Origin: Auricularia sp. M13
Taxonomy: Eukaryota; Basidiomycota; Agaricomycetes; Auriculariales; Auriculariaceae
NCBI GenBank assembly: GCA_037042915.1
Contig: CM073197.1
Span: forward strand, 992,001 to 1,056,000
DNA length: 64,000 nucleotides
Direction of reading: 5' to 3'
Shown here: positions 37,622 through 49,279 of the stretch, piece after piece
Layout: the number at the start of each line of letters is the position of its first letter
Numbering within the stretch: the first letter of the stretch is position 1
Notes under the pieces: model-generated
The model's input: the letters and a program-made list of their open reading frames with translations, nothing else
The model's database searches: none
Told to the model about the DNA's origin: nothing
Made by a program: the position numbers and the translations under genes

Positions 37622-38364
37622 ATGCCGAACATCCTGATCCTGAGCACGGGCTCGGTCGCCTCGATCAAGGTCCCACTCATCGCCGCTGAGCTCTGCAGGT
37701 GCTCCTCATCGTCCATTTGCAGCAGCGGCGAAGCTGAGACAGCCGGATAGTACCAGGATGTCAGCGTGCAGGTGGCAGCGACGAAGCCCTCGCTCGCGTT
37801 CTTCGACCGCGCAGCGCTAGATGCGACCGGGGTGCGCGTCTGGACGGACGAGGACGAGTGGGCGGTGGGTCCCTTCATCGTAGTCGCACACCGTGTGCCA
37901 GCTGACTCAGCGCTGTGGCAGACGTGGACCAAGGTCGGCGACGACATCCTGCACATCGAGTTGCGGCGCTGGGCGGACGGCGTGCTGCTCGCGCCGTGCT
38001 CGGCGAACACGCTCTCGAAGCTCGCGGCCGGCGCGTGTGATAACCTCGTCACGAGCGTCCTGCGCGCGCTGGCGCCCGGCACGCCGACCTGGGTCTTCCC
38101 CGCGATGAATACGCTCATGTATGAGCACCCGCTCACCGCCCAGCACCTGCGCGTCGTGCGGGACACGCTTGGCTACACTGTCGTCGGGCCCATCGGCAAG
38201 GCGCTTGCGTGCGGCGACGTTGGTATGTCTGTCTCCTCGCGATCGCGACTTCGATACTCACACCCGTCCCAGGCCTCGGTGCAATGACTGAGTGGCGCGA
38301 TATCGTTGCGATAGTTGTGGACAAGTTCAATCTGCAGCGCAAACCCGTCGCTGTGGTAAGTTAG
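37622..38364 (+). CDS. Phosphopantothenoylcysteine decarboxylase (HAL3/CAB3 family)
   Basis: Catalyses decarboxylation of 4'-phosphopantothenoylcysteine in coenzyme A synthesis, using FMN. ATG 37622 gives MPNILILSTGSVASIKVPLI (nucleotide-binding start). Then come VQVAATKPSLAFF, TWTKVGDDILHIELRRWAD with the likely catalytic His, PCSANTLSKLAAG, PAMNTLMYEHPLT (the PxMNxxM motif) and LACGDVGLGAMTEWRDI with the active-site Cys region. All key motifs are present, so it should be active rather than a regulatory Hal3-type subunit. Intron phase does not match between exon 1 (ending CTCTGCAG) and exon 2 (starting YQDVSVQV), so a base may be missing or a microexon unseen near 37700. The stop at 38364 overlaps a possible donor, so a further exon is possible. 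Confidence 0.85.
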
Positions 38365-38943
38365 AGCTTCAGCAATGTTCGGCCCAAAGTTCCGCCGACA
38401 TATAATGTACGACTCGTGCAAGAACTTTCTGCTTTCTGCTAACACGTCCCTTCGAAATTTAATGATGGGGCGGACAGCGCAATGCTGTCTCTAGTCCCAG
38501 ACTGTAGTTCAAGGGGCTGACTGCACTTGTCATGGGCGGAATTCGTGCAACGCAGGTTGCTCTGCGTACTCATCCCCTGGCACGCGCTTTGCTGGTCATT
38601 CACTCCAGCCGCTCAGCGAAGGGCATTGCTCACAAGCACTGGACTCTCGTTCTGTCTTCGAGATGCGTTAGACAGCTGGTCGGAGCTATAAACTGACAGC
38701 AAATTGTACTGGTTGAGCGAGCAGCGCATGAGCCTTGTGTTCTCTAGCAGTTATTTCAGCACCCACTGCGAATCGGGCGTCTTACACAATTATATACGCT
38801 TTGGCTGAGGTTGTCAGCACCGATACTACTTATACGCTGACATCCGTCGCCTTGCCTCTTGACAGTGTTACCGATTGCAATGTTCAGATCAGGCGGAACG
38901 CTCGTCTAATAGCCGTTGAGCAGTTAAAGCCTGCGCTGCAGGC
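38365..38943. other. Convergent spacer with a dispersed repeat
   Basis: Lies between the 3' ends of the decarboxylase and the first nucleotidyltransferase. It contains repeat copy 2 (38536-38735), and no gene is visible. Confidence 0.45.
38536..38735. repeat. Dispersed repeat, copy 2
   Basis: Same orientation and block order as 25175-25420, more than 13 kb away. It shares GCGGAATTCGTGCA, CCCCTGGCACGCGCT-like and GTTCTGTCTTCGAGA-like blocks. Confidence 0.45.
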
Positions 38944-41126
38944 TTATTCGCATCTGAGCGTCTGAGGTCCTGTATACTGTACCTGTTGTCCCCGTCGTGG
39001 TGTGCTGAAGTAGATACATACAGAACAAGGATCACGATTCCTGCATTTGTGCCTTTTCAGCTTCAGTTTTGCCTTCTTCTTTTTCTCCTTCTTCTCCTCC
39101 TTCTTCTCCTTCTTCTCCTTCTCCTTCTCCTTCTTCTTCGCCTTCTTCTCCTTTTTCGCCTTCTTCCGCTCGTCCTTCTCACTCTGCAGCCTCGACTTGC
39201 TCAGGAGATCGTCCAAGCCAGCGCCGCCTTCGAGCCTGTCCGCCGCACTCCGACACTCCGCGTTGAACCTCTTGAGCTCCTTCTCGGAGACTTGCTGGGC
39301 GATGTTCTGCGGGGATACGTCAGTCAGCCACAGCAAAGGAAAGTGGCAGCGGAGGGCGGACGTACGGTTTTGCGCACAATCGGATCGACGATGACAAGCG
39401 GCCGCGCGCGCCAGACATGCATGTTCGTGGGCGCGGCGAGCGCGCGTGAGAGGGCCAGCGGGTCGACGGCGTCCTCCGCGCCAGACAAAAGGGCGCTGTC
39501 TGCCTCTTCAGCGTCAGGCGACACCCGGCCATCTTCCCCAACCTCCGCGGCGCCCACCGCGGCCAAGGGGCGCGCGCCCGGCCCGGGGCGCGGGACGATG
39601 CCGCCGTCGCGCACGCTGATTGCGTGCGTCGCGGGTTTGAACCGGTTACCGTAGAAGCTATCGAGGCAGACGGGCGCAGTCTCGTCAGCGTATGGCGCAC
39701 AGAGACGGGATGCACGCACTCGAAGAAGCGCTGCAGCAGGTCGAGGAGCGAGTGCGCCGCGTCGCGTTCGGACTGGCTAGCGCGCCAGGATTGCACCGCG
39801 GCCGAGTGTGGGTCGGCGAAGCGCACGTCCGACGCGATGCGCCTGTCCCGGTCCTGTGTGACGGACCAGTACACCGTGGGCTCGTCCGCTGCTAGTGCCT
39901 GTGCGCCGGATTCGGCCAGCAGCATCGCATCCTGCAGGTTAGGCAGGAGGCCCATGTGCTGCGCGCCAGTGAGCGACGCACAATGCAGATGGACACCGCG
40001 CGCACCTGCATGAACGCGACGACCATCTGGCCGAGGGTGTAGCTGGAGAACGGCCGTGGCACGCCGACGATCTTGCCCTTCTTGCCCTTCTTTCCGCGCC
40101 CTGTCAACTTCTTGAGCTTGACTGGGGCGTCCAGCCCGGTGTGCTTCGCCCAGGCCTTGAGGATGACCAGCAGCGGCGCGAGGCGCGCGTCGAGCTCTGC
40201 GTATGCCGCCAGGAGCCGCGAGTTGTACAGCCCGTTGCGGGCGTTGATGCACAGGTCGAACGCGGTCTGTATATTGCGGTTGCGCACGTCGGGAACGACG
40301 CCGCGGACTGTCGGTGGAGAAATGGCGTCAGTGAGTGAGTGAGCGATGGATGGTGTACGCACCCAATGGAACGCGCGCGTGCGGAATGGGTTCTATGTTC
40401 GTGCAGCCATTTTCTCTGAACATCCTGGCCAGTTTTCTACGCAGAATACGGTTAGGCTGCCGCATCGGACCTCAGGGCCAAAGAACTGCTGACTCGACGT
40501 CGTAGAGGACTTGAGAAGCAACTCGTCAGTGCAGGCGGGCGAGGCGGTGAGAAGTCGCACTGTTGGGCACTTTGTTGTAAGAAATGCCTGGCTTGAAGCC
40601 CTGCGGCATCCTTGGGTCCTGTGTCGGTGTGAGCGGCCATTATTCGTGTGCAGAGACTGCGGTGGCGCACAAGCACAACGAGGTCAAGGTCGCTATTCGC
40701 CGCGTCGACACCAATGAGGGTACTGCCAAACGGCTCGACCGCCAGCTTCGCGCCACTGGGGAAGACGACGTTGTGTTTTGCGGCATATTTGTGGACGATA
40801 TACCGGATTTTTCGCAGCGCGTCCCCGCGCGCTTCCAGCTCGCGATTCGACGGCCGCGTCCGCTAATAACGCGTCAGAAAGGCTGGCAATGCTATAAAGA
40901 CTGAGCACACCTCGAAATAATCCCAGAGCGCGGCGTCGCGGTCGTCCACGTCCGCGAGTCCAAGCAGGTCGGCAAAGGGCTCGTCGGGCGCGTCAGAGAA
41001 ATCCCCGATCCAGGGATGCTCTGGTCTATCCGCTGCTAGCGACACGGAAGGCGGGCGGCGAGCGCGTGTGAGCTGTCTTGCGCTTCTGGCAGCGCATGTC
41101 GACAGCCGGCGAAGAGCAGCATGCAT
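38944..41126 (-). CDS. Cid1/Trf4-type nucleotidyltransferase (copy 1, catalytic residues present)
   Basis: Non-canonical poly(A)/poly(U) polymerase family, which adds nucleotides to RNA 3' ends. ATG 41126 gives MHAALRRLSTCAARSARQLT, basic and without acids, resembling a mitochondrial presequence. The catalytic motif is FGSTLIGVDAANSDLDLVVL (GS plus DxD). The third carboxylate is in AFDLCINARNGLYNSRLL. The central domain follows (LVILKAWAKHTGL, PRPFSSYTLGQMVVAFMQ, HMGLLPNLQDAM). The C-terminal tail is very Lys/Glu-rich, from the polypyrimidine tract at 39060-39175 (plus strand), and may be a nuclear signal, which conflicts with mitochondrial targeting. A paralog lies at 45370-47877. Exons near the tail are uncertain. 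Confidence 0.8.
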
Positions 41127-42049
41127 TGAGCGCGGCAACTCCGACACTGCCCAGGCTTGCCAGACAATGGCCTCCGCATGAAAGATTGGAAGCCATGATT
41201 GAATTGATGCCAAGATTAGAGGAATATTGAGAGATACATGCAAATAGACAGAATACACAGTTGCTATATAATAGGATGCATGTAGGTAATGGATGAAATA
41301 TATCAGTAGAATACCACACAGGGCCAAGAAGATACTATTCAACACCAGCTCGCCAAGCGCGCACAGCAAAATTATGCTCTTCTTTCTCGCACGCCTTCTC
41401 TTCCCGTAAATGCGGCCGCAATGCGCACCGATTCTTGCCAGCAGGAAGTCGATGACTTCGTCAGTCCGAGTCGTGGACGGCGCCTCATCTTCGCCGGCGG
41501 CATCTGCTCGACGACCCCCACGGTATGTTCTGGACGGATCGTGCATGGTGTCGTCGGCGTTATCTTACTGTCGCCACGGGCGGAAGACCGTCTGGAGGAC
41601 ATTCGATGGGACATCGGAAATAGAGCGGACAACCGATCGGAGTGCTTCACGCGCGGGGCGTCACACTGGATTGTTGAAGTACCAGCCAGCGAGTGAAAGA
41701 TAATAAGGTGACGGCGGAGGAGGTAACGAGGTGAGCAGAGGACGCAAGGCGCCGGGCGTGGAGGAAAGAAAGTGATCGGAAATATGAAATCAACCGAGTG
41801 GGAGCCGCACTTGAACGTGCTCACCTGAATATGAACTTGTTCTTAGATTTTCGCAAGCACCGGTAGAAAAGCGGCGATGAGGCGGGTACGGAGGTATGAG
41901 ACGAAGAAGCACCTGGAGAAGCGGAGCACCCCATGCGGACGGCTTTGACTTTCGTAACGTTGCGCTCTGGGTCTGCCTTAAGTTTCAACGCACCCTGATA
42001 AAGAGATATCCGCGTGGGCCGTCGTATTGCTTGCTCGGTTGGGAGGATG
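41127..42049. other. Spacer with AT-rich tract and possible small minus-strand gene
   Basis: 41190-41340 is notably AT-rich. Minus-strand frames carry ALKLKADPERNVTKVKAVR (about 41990-41930) and DEVIDFLLARIGAHCGRIYG (about 41460-41400), which could be exons of a small basic protein. I could not connect them into a gene or name a family. Confidence 0.3.
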
Positions 42050-44404
42050 CTATACAAGTCTAAGCACCGCGACGCTCTCCACATGCGCCGTCTGCGGGAA
42101 CAGGTCGAACCCGCGCAAGCTCTGCAGCCTGTACCGTCGCCCCTCGGGCTCCCCCTTCGTCCGGCCGACCAAGATGCCGACGTCGCGCGCCTGGGTGTGC
42201 ACGTTGCAGCTGACGTACACCACCGTGGCTGGGCGCAGCGCGAGCAGCTGGCGCAGGAAGAGCTCGTCGCAGCCCTTGCGCGGCGGGTCGATCACGACCG
42301 CCGTGCGGTCAGGAGGGAACCCCTCCTGCACTTCACTGCCGAGGACGGACGCGAAGATGGCCTCCGCCTGGCCCGCGGTGAACGCGCAGCGCTCGGCGGG
42401 CAGGCCGTTGAGCTGTGCGTTCGCGCGCGCGGCCGCGACGGCCTTGGCGTCGAGCTCGACGCCCACCGCGTGCGTGAAGCTCCCTGCCAGGGCGACGCTA
42501 AACAGGCCGCTGCCACAGTACGCGTCCACAAGGTGCGTCGGCCGCGTATCCGGCGTCGTGCAGTCGTCGATGGCGGTGCGCACGTAGTCGAGCAGGCGCG
42601 GCAGGATCGCGTTGTTGTTCTGGAAGAACGAGCCCGCGGGGAACTCGAAGCGGTGCGCGCCGACGCGCTCGCGCACCGTCGCTTTGTGGTCCGTGATGCA
42701 AATGTGCTGTTCTGGCTGTGACGCGGGGTCGGGCGAGAACGCTTCGAGCGAGTCGCGCAGCAACAGCGTCGCGGAGCGTTTGTACTGCGCGATGTTTCTG
42801 AAGCAATGCTCAGTGCCTTTCTCCCATGATGACAGCGACACACTTTTGCACATTATCCCGCGCAGGGCCCAACGCATCGTTCAGCGTGCGCGTCGCGATC
42901 GGGCACTCCTACAGCGCAGACATCATCAATAGTTGTGCAACTCGAAAATGGTGAGGGCACACCTCAATATCGAGAATTTGCGCACGCCCCTTGGCCTCAA
43001 AGCCTATACTCAGCTTCCAGTCGCTGTCCTTGTCCTTCTTCGCCCGCGGGCGCCCCTTGCGGCCCGTCCTGTTCTCAGGCGGTGCGTCGAAGTGCGGTGT
43101 GATTTTTGTGCGGTAGCCGTACTGTAACGGCGAGCCGATCGTCGGCTGCACTGGGGGGACGTCTGCGTTCATGTCCAGACCTTTTGCGAGTGAGTCAGCG
43201 GATGTCTGAAAGATTTGTGGCTGATGAAGAATGGAGATGGGGGGAATGAATATGCAAAGGAGGGACAACCAGGAATGATGCAAAGGAGGGACAGGACACA
43301 CCAGAGTAGTTTATGTAGGCCTTTTCGACGACTGTCGCCTTGATTTCCAGCTGTTTCTCGTATGAGAGCATCTGTCGTACATTGAGGAATGTGTGCTCAA
43401 GAGAGCATGCATTGGGAGCAGGGCTGAGACTCCTTGGGTAGTTGAATATCTTGGCTTGACATTCGGAAAAGTGGCACGAGTTTCCCAAGAGTATTTCTAC
43501 CTATTATGATCTTGGGATACTCGTGCACTTGTCTGAACGTCAAGCTAAGAATTTCGTCGACTACTAAGTGATTCCCAGCCCTGCTTCCAGTGGTACGTAA
43601 CGCACTTGGTACTGGCATCCGGCACACGAGCCAAAGTAGCGGCACTGAACGCGCGACATGTCGCGCAGCTCGTCGTTGGGCGTGATAATTTCGAGTAGAT
43701 CGGCTGGGAGCACAGTGAGCAGGGTAAGACTGCCAACGTACAAGTTGGCAGACGCACCGTACGAGCACATGCGCATATGCTTGATGATCTTGACGCGCAC
43801 CGTCTCGCCCGGCAACGCGAACGGCAGACGCACAGCCCATGGTGGATGGGGCTCTGGTAGCCGTGCGAGGGCTTCGCCTGGCCACCGCAGCGTAGGTATA
43901 ATGAGCGGCGTAGACTGCAGCTACTCACGCACCATTTGACGAGAGCATCTCGACCCGCAGCTCTATCTCGTCGCCAAACTTGACGGGTGGTGCGTACTGC
44001 GTCTTGGCTGCCCGCGCGGTATCGACGGTGTCCTGACCGAGGAGCGCAACCACGTCCTTCCACGCGACATCGTCCGGCGAGCCAGGCTCGGGCCCAGGCG
44101 CGTGCTTTGCTTTCGCCTTGGACTTGGCCTTGTTGCCGTTATTCTGCGTCTGCAATGGTTTGGAGCTGGCCTCGGCCTGCAGCTCGACAGGGATCGCGTC
44201 CTCTGCAGGCGCGACATCATCCATCGGTGCAATTGGAGAGCCCAGGCGCGGTTTTTTGGCAACACTCAGGTCAGGCAGAGGCGATGGCTCGCGCGAGTGC
44301 ACGCTGCCTGCGATCGCGCTTGTGCTCATAGAGGCCGGACGGGGATGTGGACGAAGGCGGCGGCCAATCAGCAACGGCGCAATTGCCCGCGAGAGCCTGA
44401 GCAT
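42050..44404 (-). CDS. TRM2: TRM2-like tRNA (uracil-5)-methyltransferase
   Basis: Makes 5-methyluridine at position 54 in the T-loop of tRNA. ATG 44404 gives MLRLSRAIAPLLIGRRLRPH, presequence-like; a second Met (MSTSAIAG) may start a cytosolic form. Next come a Lys-rich linker, a TRAM-like stretch (ALPGETVRVKIIKH), a Cys cluster (CRYFGSCAGCQYQ, as in RumA/Trm2 proteins) and MLSYEKQLEIKA. The methyltransferase core has NNNAILPRLLDYV, VDAYCGSGLFSVAL (SAM motif I), VVIDPPRKGCDE and VSCNVHTQARD with the catalytic Cys. The end is VAVLRLV at 42050. The frame joins cleanly. It is flanked on both sides by the two nucleotidyltransferase paralogs. Confidence 0.88.
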
Positions 44405-44924
44405 GAACACAGAACCCAGCTGAGCTCGAACCGCGTTTTTTGATCTTGAACCCCGCATTCACTGACAGCAATAATTCATTATTGTAATGTAACTGTGAGA
44501 CGCGTGACGCGTAGGCCATCCCTGCTCCTGGGTAGTCTAGTTCTGCTCTCGTGGCCACTTAGTTCCCCTCGGAATCTCGATCTCAACTTGTACCCGCTCC
44601 TTCGTCTCATACCACGTCCACACGTCGTCGCTGCCTCTGCCGGCCCATTCGACAACTCGGTCAACTCAAACAGGTGACCACGTCGTCTGGCTTGCCGGGG
44701 TCGTTCTAATATGATTCTTATTTCTTTCCTATCATTGTCCAAACGCTGTGCTCACCTTGCTCTGCTGCCTGTTAACACTGCTCGGACCTGTTCGCCTTCC
44801 GCTGGCTGGCGATGTTTCCTGACACTGCTACTCTCGCGCTTCGCCGCTGCCCGTCGTATTCCGCCTTTGCGCGCTTACCGCCGTTCACCATGTCCCCGTG
44901 CTGTCAGTCGCTAGCATCATGATT

Positions 44925-45330
44925 AGTCTGGATTTCGACGACTTTCAAAGCAGTCAATGTGCCTGTGGAAGATATTGTGCATTACTGTGGACCATCTTAC
45001 CACATCGGTTGGCTCTGTGGCCTGGGTTACGTCGCGACCAGCGTTGAGGGCCACATCTGTCGAGTGGGAGAGAGGACATCCATTGCCACGAGCACATCTG
45101 TCGCGGAAGGCGACGTCTACGAATTCGTGTACGACTTGCAACTCCTCGACATGGTCATGGGAAACACCATGCTGAACCTCGCCACAGAGTGCCGGCGCAT
45201 CAACCTCACCAACTTCATCACGAGTACCGGGACAAGAAGTTCCTCGTCTTCAGATACCCAAGCAAGCACACGTCAAAACACTGTCGATGTGTCCAGCCGC
45301 GACCCGTACTGTGTTTTCACAGGCATGTGT
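44925..45330 (+). pseudogene. Truncated HNH-protein fragment
   Basis: One frame reads FKAVNVPVEDIVHYCGPSYH, then LGYVATSVEGHICRVGE, VAEGDVYEFVYD and finally SSRDPYCVFTG. The middle matches the N-terminal domain of the HNH protein at 36324-37600 in pattern (G-Y-x-A-x4-G-x-I-x2-V). The last block is the start of an HNH core (RD-xx-CV-xTG). Nothing after it supplies the His-Asn-His residues before the 3' end of the next gene at 45370. No clean ATG lies in frame. It looks like a gene remnant or a misassembled gene; short splice-dependent continuation cannot be ruled out. Confidence 0.45.
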
Positions 45331-45369
45331 ACTGTATGTCTCTCGTCGATGTGGATATATTATAGCAGA

Positions 45370-47877
45370 TTACGTTGTACTCTGTCGATCTGTATTACTT
45401 TTGGGTTTCCAGTACTTCCATTTCCTCTTACGCTTAGGCATATTAGGCTCAGGATTCTTCGCTTTATACAATGCCCGCAGCGCCCTGACCACCTGCTGCT
45501 TCCGGTGGGACGGTTTCAGGGGCGGTTTCCGCAACACGCGAGAAGCGCGCAACAGCAAATCCGTCAGCCCCAGCCCGAGCTGCAGCACTTTCACGCCGCG
45601 CTTACACTCCACGACAAACCTGTTGAGGTCCGCCTTCGAGACGGATTGCGCGACGTTCTAAAGCAGCACGATGCGTAATCAGCACGGACTGGGAAAACTA
45701 AGGAGACAGCAGAAAAAAGACACGTACCTGCACGCGCACCATGGGGTCGACGATGACGAGCGGCACGCTCTGCCACGGCCGCACGTCGGTGGGCGCGGCG
45801 AGCAGCAGTGCGAGCTCTTGGCTGATCTGCTGGTTGGCGTGCGACGAGTCGCCCTCGCGCAGCCACGTAATGTGACTGTCTCTCTCTCGCGGAGCCACGT
45901 CCACGTGCGGCGGCGCCGACCGGTCGAGCCTGTCCGCGTTACCCTCGCCGCCGCCCGCGCGGCCGGCGTCGCGCAGGTCGCGCGAAACCTCGGCGAACAA
46001 GCGTTCGGGCGGGCGGTAGCCCGGGCGGCGCAGGCGCGACACGACCCCACCGTCGCGCACGCTGATTGCGGACAGTGCGTAGTCGAACTCCGCGTAGAAC
46101 CTGCACAGCACAAAATCAAAGAAAAGGCAGCGTCAGTCCCGCCTCCCGCATGGTGCGAACCCGCACGCACTTGAAGAAGCCCTTCAAGAGCGAGACGAGC
46201 GTCGGCTGGCCGCCTTTGCGCTCCAGCTGCAGGTTGCGCTCCGCGATCCAGTTCTGCATACTGTCCGTGTGCGGATCGAGGAAGCGGACGTCCGAGGGCA
46301 TGCGCTTGTGGTCGTACGGGTGGTTGACGTCCACAGACCAGTACACCACTGGCGCGTCTCCGGTGTCGTCACACGGGCGCGAGAACCTATACTGCGCCGT
46401 GGTCACATCTTTGCCGGGCGTCGTTTCCACCTTCCCGACGAACGGCTGCTGCAGGTTCGGCAGCAGGCGCACATGCTGTCAACAGCGGATGAGAACACGA
46501 GAGCGGCATCGACGGAGACCCACGGACTTGCAGGAACGCCACGGCCATTAGGGTTATGGTGTAGCTCGAGAACGGGCGTGTTGGGGCGATGACCCGTCCT
46601 TTCCGTCCGTTCCGTATGTTCAGCTCGGGTTTGTCCAAGCCAGATTTCCTCGCCCACTCCTTGAGGATGACGATGAGCGGCCCGACGCGCTCGTCCAGCT
46701 CTACGTAGGCGCCGAGGAGCTGCGAATTGTAGAGCCCGTTGCGCGCGTTGACGCAGATAGAGAACGGAGTTTTCATTGCGGGGTGCTCTTCGTCACATAT
46801 AACGCCGCGCACTGTATAAATGGAGCGTGAGTGACATATATTACAGGTCGTATCCTGCATCGGAATAGCGTGACACAAAAGGACTGGACACCGCCTCAAA
46901 TTGCGGGTGGAAGACAGGCCGTCCAGCTACACCGCGCAGATATCTGCAGTCTGCTAGAAGAGTGCAAGCGGCAGGTAGCATGCAACGGTGGCGGCCTGGC
47001 ATGAGGCCCATCTGTCCAGAACGTATGGCGGCATCCTAGCCCTTTTTTTGTCACAAATTTCGCGTCCCGAAGGACCAATTGCAAGCCTCGGGGAGGGCAG
47101 GACATACCAATTGGAACGCGGGCTTTCGGGATGGCCTGCACTTGTTTGCAGCCGTGGAGATGCCTCGAAAGTTCCCTACAACGCGCGGCGTCAGCAAAAC
47201 GTAGTCGAATGCATAGGCCTTCACTCACTGGACATCGTACATGACTGAAGCGACCATCCGTCAGCCGAGATGCTTGAGCGAGACGACGCGCGAAACTCAC
47301 TATTAGGCACCTTCTCATACATTATGCCTGGCTTGAATCCCTGAGGCCTCTTGGGATCCTACGGAAGATTTCATAAGGAGCACAAATTTGCGGGAAAGAG
47401 TTGAGCACACGCACGAGAAGGACGAGGTCGATCTCGCTTTCCTGCCTATCCACGCCGATGCGATTGCTGCCATACCTCACGACATTAATCCTCTCGTACG
47501 GATGCATAAGGCCCTTCTTTGCCGCGAATTTCTCGACGAGCATCCTGATTTTCTTCAGCGCGACTCTGCGCGCATTCTGCTGCGTTGGCGACGGGCGCGT
47601 CCGCTGCGCACAAGCGTGAGACCGTGCGGAGCGCAGGAAACAGAAACAGAAGGCGCACGTTCCAAAAGTCCCAGAGCTCCTTTTCAACGATTTCCTGTTG
47701 CTCCTCGGGCGAACGAGGCGGAGGCTCGTAGCTCGCAAGCGGCGCGGTGACGGCTTGGCCCTGCGTCCAGTATGCACGCCGCGCCGACATCGAACGCAGC
47801 GCGTGGGCATGCATGGACGTCATCTGCTTTGCGAGCTGGGTTGTGCATCTCGATAGCCACCGGATACCCCCATGCAT
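45370..47877 (-). CDS. Cid1/Trf4-type nucleotidyltransferase paralog (copy 2, probable pseudoenzyme)
   Basis: ATG 47877 opens a basic leader with MHAHALRSMSARRAYWTQGQ. The catalytic region reads VVRYGSNRIGVDRQESEIDL: GS is kept but the first Asp is Glu (codon at 47433-47435). The third carboxylate motif reads PFSICVNARNGLYNSQLL: Ser (46759-46761) replaces the Asp found in copy 1. The rest parallels copy 1: DPKRPQGFKPGIMYEKVPN, LIVILKEWARKSGLDKPE, RPFSSYTITLMAVAFLQ, CPQSAISVRDGGVV-like and NVAQSVSKADLNRFVVECK segments. The tail is basic (MPKRKRKWKYWKPK). Splice joins look intact, so selection may maintain a non-catalytic role, perhaps RNA binding or partnering with copy 1. That role is inference. 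Confidence 0.75.
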
Positions 47878-48161
47878 TCGACGCGGATGAGTGGAAAAGG
47901 CAAAAGCGCGACGCGCATCGGCGAAATCCGCTAAGCGCTCGACGTCGTTGACCAGCTAGGAATCATATTTTCCCAGGTTCCTGCGATTCGCCTCTTTTGC
48001 TTATTCGGAAATTTATGCGGACATATGTATCCAGCAGTCGACATTCACTCCACGGATTCACACGGCTTCTCATGACACATGTCGTCTGCGAACAACCTCT
48101 GCGGATTCTGGAATGCCAACGATTCACATGAACAAGCTTCAAGTCAAAACTTGCAGTTGTG

Positions 48162-49279
48162 TTATGATTTACGGATATCTACATGCAACTCCTCGGAGTC
48201 GTTCTTGCCTTCGCGCGCCTGCTCGTCAAGTTCCCGAACCCGGCGCTGTAATACCCACACATTTAGGTTTCGTACAGTACGCACCAAGGAGTCTCACCTC
48301 TAAAGCAAACAAGTACGGGTCGCCGCTGTCCGGCGCCAACTCTCGCACGAGGCGCGCGATGCCATAGAGGTAGTCTTTGTTGGCACCGGACGGGCCGACA
48401 CTGCGCCATATGTGCTCGGCGAGCTGGTCCATGGGCTCTGAGCCAACTGTACATCGCGCAAGTCATGATGATGACACTGGAACCAGTCAGGCTAGGATGG
48501 ATACGCACTGAAGGCTGGGTTGTCACTCCGCCCGACGTAGACCTGCGATCGCGCGTTCATCGTTCATCATTAAACAGGCTGCATTGCGCGCGCAAACTCA
48601 CTACAGCCTTAGACAGCATGTGTGAGAACGGCAAGGAGCGAGTTCAAGATAGAGAGGACACACCCCGGGCACGACGACGCTACCGTCTGCGCCGTATATG
48701 TCCTCTATATGAACAGTATACCCCTCTTTCTCGCGGTACTCCAGGTAATCGTGCGTCTCTTGAGATAGCTTTGGGTCGGGATCGATTGTGTACGCCACGC
48801 CCCAGACGATGTCATGCCCAGGGAACGTTTCCTTCAACCGTTTCAACATGGCGGATGCCGTTGAGGAAGGGCACGTGAGACGCACGTGACCGTACAGAGA
48901 CTCCCACTCATCTATGGGTATGAGAGTCACGACTCGCCCCGGCGCCTGTGTAGGGTATGCTCAGGACACCGGGATGATCGATGAGGGAAGAAAGAGATGG
49001 ACCTCCGGGGTGCCGCGATGGTCCGTCGAGCTCTGTGCAAAGCGACGCACGTATCCCTTGATGTATCCAGGCGCTTTGCAGTCGCAGCTTCAGCCATGCC
49101 AGACACTGAGCGGACGAGGAGGGCACGTACTTCGCGCGACGACGTTCGGGGGTGGCTGTCACCAGAGAACTTATTCATTGAAAAGACGATGTGCGGCTCG
49201 GACGCGCCTTGAACATCAAGCTGCCGTATCCCCATACGTGGAACGGCTGTTTCGGCGTCGTCGAAGGGGTGTTGCTCAT
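48162..49279 (-). CDS. GCG1: ChaC-type glutathione gamma-glutamylcyclotransferase
   Basis: Cleaves glutathione to 5-oxoproline and Cys-Gly in the cytosol. ATG 49279 gives MSNTPSTTPKQPFHVWGYGS. The YGSL substrate-binding motif is VWGYGSLMF. Then come GYVRRFAQSSTDHRGTPE, APGRVVTLIPIDEW, DIVWGVAYTIDPD and DYLEYREKEGY with a conserved Glu. The C-terminal helix has EHIWRSVGPSGANKDYLYG and LVRELAPDSGDPYLF, and the last exon ends EELHVDIRKS at 48162. Introns join in frame. It is divergent from the thioredoxin-TPR gene, 195 bp between starts; both relate to thiol metabolism, which may be chance. Confidence 0.85.

Follow-up and report, generated by a model that had tools for sequence, protein, structure and literature searches.

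Terminal nucleotidyltransferases (TENTs) belong to a superfamily defined by three acidic residues that coordinate two metals (PMC11646218). In the Aspergillus enzyme CutA, the metals and the nucleotide are contacted by Asp339, Asp341, Ser328, Asn403, Thr404, Lys425, Ser444, and Tyr445 (PMC7498324), and the animal poly(A) polymerase MTPAP has been described as confined to mitochondria and as requiring dimerization for its activity (PMC6232586). Noncatalytic versions of the fold are also on record; TUT4 and TUT7 contain Cid1-type domains without the critical catalytic aspartates (PMC6232586), and NF45-NF90, which have the nucleotidyltransferase fold and lack catalytic aspartates, dimerize and bind RNA (PMC11646218). 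Elsewhere, the AdoMetDC prozyme of trypanosomes provides an example of a dead paralog that activates its live twin (PMC5201418). Here we describe two paralogous Cid1/MTPAP-type genes, copy 1 and copy 2, in a window of 64,000 nt from Auricularia sp. M13 (C5:992001-1056000; the genome comprises 52,096,326 bases in 14 contigs). Copy 1 carries the canonical Asp/Asp/Asp (D/D/D) triad of catalytic carboxylates, while copy 2 has Glu/Asp/Ser (E/D/S) at the same positions. Copy 2 is probably a functional pseudoenzyme rather than a decayed gene, and as a predicted noncatalytic subunit it would most likely be paired with copy 1 or another active member of the family.

Family assignment and active sites

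Both proteins are TENTs of the Cid1/MTPAP type by domain content. The top Pfam match of each is PF22600, the MTPAP-like central palm domain (E value of 1.4e-20 for copy 1 and 5.1e-16 for copy 2), and each also matches PF03828, the Cid1-family PAP-associated domain (4.6e-7 and 3.4e-8), with all four matches above the cutoff. When single sequences were compared to solved structures, the best match of copy 1 was TUT4 (2ikf; E value of 4.2e-11) and that of copy 2 was GLD-2 (4zrl; 2.8e-11); a profile of five family members placed CutA first (6ywn; 6.4e-21) and also recovered Cid1 (8.9e-17). The structure entitled Poly(A) RNA polymerase (PDB 3pq1), which we take to be MTPAP, ranked low in the profile search (7e-6). 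Likeness to MTPAP extends to PF22600 as the best Pfam match of both copies and to acid-poor N termini in the family; a direct relationship is putative. The two genes and their catalytic positions are as follows.

38944..41126, minus strand: copy 1, nine exons encoding a terminal nucleotidyltransferase of the Cid1/MTPAP type (583 aa, full D/D/D triad)
45370..47877, minus strand: copy 2, paralog of copy 1 with a matching set of nine exons (599 aa, E/D/S triad)
40683..40691, minus strand: first and second carboxylates of copy 1, Asp130 and Asp132 (SDLDL), by codon coordinates
40255..40257, minus strand: third carboxylate of copy 1, Asp203 (GAC), aligned with TUT4 (2ikf)
47427..47435, minus strand: first and second carboxylates of copy 2, Glu130 and Asp132 (SEIDL), by codon coordinates
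46759..46761, minus strand: Ser201 (TCT) of copy 2 at the third-carboxylate position, by codon coordinates and alignments

Copy 1 has the GS motif and the three catalytic carboxylates of a TENT (Asp130, Asp132, and Asp203), together with counterparts of CutA residues Ser328, Asp339, Asp341, Asn403, Lys425, Ser444, and Tyr445; the counterpart of Thr404 is Ser. Copy 2 (Glu130, Asp132, and Ser201) does not have the three carboxylates of a catalytically competent TENT. Unlike CutA, it has Glu for Asp339, which is a conservative change, and at the third Asp (Asp392 by our own count along the profile alignment) it has Ser. An earlier note on this DNA had pointed to the motifs SDLDLVV and FDLCI in copy 1 and SEIDLVL and FSICV in copy 2, all of which are present in the rebuilt proteins (the note makes no comment on the Glu of copy 2), and rereading of the third-carboxylate codon of copy 2 gave TCT at 46761-46759, which encodes the Ser claimed there and not Asp. 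This column of the alignment is anchored both by copy 1 against TUT4 and by the family profile against CutA and GLD-2. The TCT codon falls within exon 6 (46528-46811) and is clear of splice junctions; reaching any Asp or Glu codon from it takes two substitutions, and no acidic residue stands beside Ser201 (TPFSICVN).

To gauge the rest of the nucleotide pocket, we compared 16 positions comprising the CutA contacts and their neighbors. At 13 of these the two copies carry the same residue, compared to 233 of 528 aligned residues (44.1%) overall (hypergeometric P = 0.0025), although the P value is a guide and not a blind test because the positions were picked after the motifs had been seen, some of them inside motifs already noticed. 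The three differences in copy 2 are the first carboxylate, the third carboxylate, and one Lys-to-Arg change. As judged from its residues, copy 2 is very probably dead as a transferase.

Gene structure and origin of the pair

We rebuilt both genes exon by exon from a three-frame reading of the minus strand, picking splice sites by hand with homology as a guide. Neither model needs a stop or a frame break, and with sites chosen in this way all 16 introns of the two genes are GT-AG. The eight intron positions are common to both copies, with phases of 0, 0, 1, 2, 1, 0, 2, and 0 in each, and a search with copy 1 as the query recovered exon 6 of copy 2 (E value of 6.0e-27; 1.1e-26 in the reverse search). 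Elements of the models include the following.

40494..40509, minus strand: exon 4 of copy 1, a 16-nt microexon (gene model)
47229..47244, minus strand: exon 4 of copy 2, a 16-nt microexon (gene model)
46812..47107, minus strand: intron 5 of copy 2, 296 nt, compared to 55 nt for its copy 1 counterpart (gene model)

The models agree with the earlier note in placing two same-strand genes on either side of a TRM2-type gene, with identical outer ends, and the identity, reciprocal matches, and shared introns bear out its proposal that the two are paralogs, as the nine exons and 599 aa of copy 2 do for its intact spliced frame. The shared sequence blocks listed in that note are present, as DPRMPQGFKPGISYNKVPN and CINARNGLYNSRLL in copy 1 and DPKRPQGFKPGIMYEKVPN and CVNARNGLYNSQLL in copy 2, with the correction that copy 1 has DPR and not DPK. 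Direct repeats of at least 25 nt within 38800-48000 form six families, each of which pairs exons or exon edges of copy 1 with those of copy 2; this confinement to matching exons or exon edges is as expected for an old tandem duplication. Copy 1 ends in a long low-complexity tail rich in lysine and glutamate (39000-39170), and copy 2 has no such tail.

Selection on copy 2

Relative-rate tests found no significant difference between the copies with any of four outgroups drawn from relatives on other contigs. Unique changes in copy 1 versus copy 2 numbered 39 versus 52 with the C9 relative (chi-square of 1.86), 43 versus 29 with C10 (2.72), 35 versus 41 with C8 (0.47), and 16 versus 15 with the more distant C4 gene (0.03). 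We also fitted a branch codon model of our own (GY94 type with F3x4 frequencies) to 399 gap-free codons of five of the six family members on a topology that we fixed. In this fit the branch leading to copy 2 had a dN of 0.185 and that leading to copy 1 a dN of 0.226, and omega = 1 on the copy 2 branch was rejected by 10.4 log units (likelihood ratio test [LRT] statistic of 20.8, 1 df). Because dS is saturated, we use only this rejection of neutrality and set the omega values aside. Finally, when the coding sequence of copy 1 was left to drift at random until identity had fallen to 44%, at least six stops arose in 200 of 200 runs (mean of 14.7), while copy 2 has none.

Together, the rate tests, the rejection of omega = 1, and the drift runs indicate that copy 2 has encoded a constrained protein during most of the time that it has existed as a separate gene. 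They thus support constraint over the long term (LRT of 20.8 and no significant rate difference, with dS saturated), and copy 2 is a pseudoenzyme in the sense that a catalytic residue has been lost from a protein under constraint, within the limit that saturated dS places on that comparison. That it has been selected for a function appears very likely from these sequence comparisons.

Relatives elsewhere in the genome

Searches with copies 1 and 2, and then with the C8 and C10 proteins, recovered four further members of the family, on contigs C8, C9, C10, and C12, and no others; all member counts are lower bounds. We built the C8, C9, and C10 models by hand and mapped that of C12 from C9. Each of the four models has nine exons and an uninterrupted reading frame, and the 16-nt exon 4 is present in six of six family models (chosen to fit in C9 and mapped from C9 in C12). 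The C9 and C12 proteins are near-copies (562 of 571 residues), and identity is 27 to 37% between clades and within the C8/C9/C10 group. In a phylogenetic tree the C8, C9, C10, and C12 members cluster with support of 90/89, which falls short of the level that the program marks with a star, with the inner order and the root not settled.

The triads of these members are D/Q/E (C8), D/D/D (C9 and C12), and E/E/E (C10), such that three of the six members differ from D/D/D, each with different altered residues. Active-site change is therefore not unique to copy 2, as C8 and C10 demonstrate. In C10 (locus L054, minus strand) the GS motif reads GP, its serine replaced by Pro, and in C8 (locus L055, minus strand) Gln stands in place of the phosphate-binding Lys; the counterpart of CutA Lys425 is lost in both. 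The all-Glu triad of C10 may still be active. The C9 and C12 members have a D/D/D triad yet lack counterparts of Asn403, Thr404, Ser444, and Tyr445, leaving copy 1 as the only one of three D/D/D members that keeps the pocket. The triad label is unclustered on the tree (223 of 500 shuffles were as low for D/D/D). Two more distant genes look canonical, one on C4 (D/D/D) and one on C7 (SDMDL and CDIGF, read by eye).

Two side observations concern the C9 and C12 members. Intron 6 of the C9 model (locus L053) is GC-AG (CAG|GCACGT), and the donor in C12 is identical. The surrounding regions, C9:374000-381000 (L053) and C12:501500-508500 (L052), are mutually inverted and match at 97.4% over 4,552 bases and 93.6% over 746 bases, which reflects either a recent segmental duplication or a duplicated region of the assembly.

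Possible role of copy 2

We propose that a nine-exon gene of the Cid1/MTPAP type was duplicated long ago to yield copy 1, which retains all of the catalytic and nucleotide-binding positions that we looked at, and copy 2, which has kept the fold and most of the pocket but in which the third metal-binding Asp became Ser and the first became Glu. When the third carboxylate of such an enzyme is absent, the 3' OH is not activated. An incoming nucleoside triphosphate (NTP) could still sit in the copy 2 pocket with Glu130 and Asp132, so that NTP binding, and perhaps RNA binding, would be predicted for copy 2 in the absence of nucleotide transfer. A partner, most likely copy 1 but conceivably a different active family member, could have its activity or RNA choice set by copy 2, possibly in mitochondria. 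The partner role is suggested only by analogy to the MTPAP dimer and to dead paralogs that activate live ones.

Each of the described systems differs from this arrangement in some respect. In TUT4 and TUT7 the dead domain is in the same chain as the active one, whereas copy 2 is a separate gene beside an active paralog; NF45-NF90 resemble copy 2 in combining a nucleotidyltransferase fold with loss of catalytic carboxylates but belong to a different, animal branch; and the AdoMetDC prozyme is an unrelated enzyme, with activation of copy 1 by copy 2 being hypothetical. We found no stand-alone dead Cid1-type paralog in fungi in the open-license literature, which is not proof of absence from print. 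As far as we searched that literature, a dead paralog that stands as a gene of its own beside a live one, among relatives of which some are also altered, goes beyond the noncatalytic nucleotidyltransferase domains already described.

Among alternative explanations, the most serious is that copy 2 has a solo function in binding RNA or NTP, with no partnership with copy 1, which we consider possible though less probable than our main reading. Copy 2 retains the pocket and the PAP-associated domain, fungal pseudonucleases derived from Dis3L2 that act as RNA-binding proteins provide a precedent (PMC8097288), and departures from D/D/D in C8 and C10 indicate that loss is not tied to a neighboring active copy; however, RNA binding by copy 2 is only predicted, and a solo role makes the same sequence predictions as a partnership. 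In our analysis the two fit equally well, and the narrower claim that copy 2 acts through copy 1 rather than alone is a tentative one that we would put at worse than even. It is unlikely that copy 2 is still catalytic, with Glu130 and Asp132 holding the metals and another residue, water, or a partner serving as the third ligand. The general [DE]h[DE]h pattern given in the earlier note permits Glu, and the NTP pocket shows no loss at the positions chosen, but Ser is unable to substitute for a metal-binding carboxylate, TPFSICVN offers no adjacent acidic residue, and three acidic residues with two metals define the superfamily (PMC11646218).

Early decay into a pseudogene is less likely still: it would account for the missing catalytic residue and sits with the wide divergence among family members (27 to 37% identity), but the 599-aa frame is intact with eight introns in the same places, there is no significant rate increase, omega = 1 is rejected, and the pocket is more conserved than the remainder. 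We rejected a recent pseudogene on these same grounds of frame, introns, rates, omega, and pocket. An error in the sequence or gene model that hides an Asp in the true copy 2 product is barely credible; the source is a single assembly, but TCT would have to contain two independent base errors, the codon is within exon 6 and away from splice junctions, and a sequencing error at this codon was rejected for requiring two wrong bases.

Several points weigh against copy 2 as a functional, partnered pseudoenzyme. Its loss of transfer, its NTP or RNA binding, and its location are predictions from sequence, and nothing physically ties it to copy 1. In the one-omega model dS was fitted at 18 to 31 on most branches, which leaves omega values with little meaning, and the codon test covered five of six members on a fixed topology whose grouping of C8 with C9 is not settled by the tree. 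No orthologs of copy 2 were found in two collections that are not meant for fungi; in viral_contigs, searched with copy 1 alone as the query, 2 stretches fit a pattern and 0 were confirmed, and in genome_contigs 177 fit a pattern and 0 were confirmed. Because no ortholog was found, constraint is averaged over the whole branch, and the loss of the triad could postdate most of it.

Acid-poor N termini hint at mitochondrial import of this family. Among the first 32 residues of five members, 1 of 160 is acidic, whereas the composition of the remaining residues would predict 18.6 (P = 5.5e-8), and in having N termini that look like import signals the pair's family differs from CutA and from Cid1 of Schizosaccharomyces pombe. 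Against import, basic residues are not enriched at the N terminus of copy 2 (4 versus 4.3 expected), C8 (0.27) and C9 (0.38) have low maximal hydrophobic moments, and the start codons are predicted. On balance we slightly favor a mitochondrial site of action for copy 2. Fungal mitochondrial transcripts are said to carry no polyadenylation (PMC8979003), and passages of PMC9181182 and PMC4019555 contain nothing on tailing in these organelles.

A more far-reaching possibility, which we regard as speculative and rather improbable, is that of a private and possibly mitochondrial family of RNA-tailing proteins in which copy 1 is an ordinary enzyme and copy 2, C8, and C10 have become stand-alone pseudonucleotidyltransferases through different residue changes. 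The dead members would assemble with the live one to set its RNA choice, which would imply nontemplated tailing in the mitochondria of fungi, organelles said to lack polyadenylation. A free-standing dead Cid1-type paralog beside its live twin, with other triads changed in the same family, would offer a small natural series for learning how particular active-site losses make a regulator out of an RNA-tailing enzyme. If the N termini are real import signals, RNA tailing in fungal mitochondria would also come into question; if the residue loss alone is true, copy 2 would be one more pseudoenzyme of a familiar sort.

Genes around the pair

The gene between the copies is the following.

42050..44458, minus strand: TRM2-type tRNA (uracil-5-)-methyltransferase gene, approximate extent (PF05958 match)

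PF05958 matches the open reading frame at 42050-42880 (E value of 1.2e-15). Within the remainder of the gene, 43564-43920 has only a subthreshold TRAM match, and the pieces at 42909-43310 and 43925-44458 had no Pfam match. This is the sole PF05958 match found in the genome (a lower bound), and we rejected duplication of TRM2 along with the pair on the basis of this single match and of repeats that involve only copy 1 and copy 2 exons. The suggestion in the earlier note that the pair acts on tRNA substrates shared with Trm2 is not supported, as it derives from adjacency and four other members lie on other contigs. ARAGORN with bacterial settings found no tRNA genes in the 64-kb window, and no Rfam family reached the threshold there.

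Between TRM2 and copy 2, a plus-strand open frame at 44923-45678 may be a gene remnant; its piece at 44923-45366 and the overlapping frames at 45048-45365 and 45176-45661 had no match in Pfam. Copy 1 is adjoined by a plus-strand flavoprotein-domain gene at 37751-38287 (PF02441; E value of 4.5e-21), and on the far side of copy 2 lies a minus-strand piece of a ChaC-like gene at 48601-48960 (PF04752; 2.7e-9).

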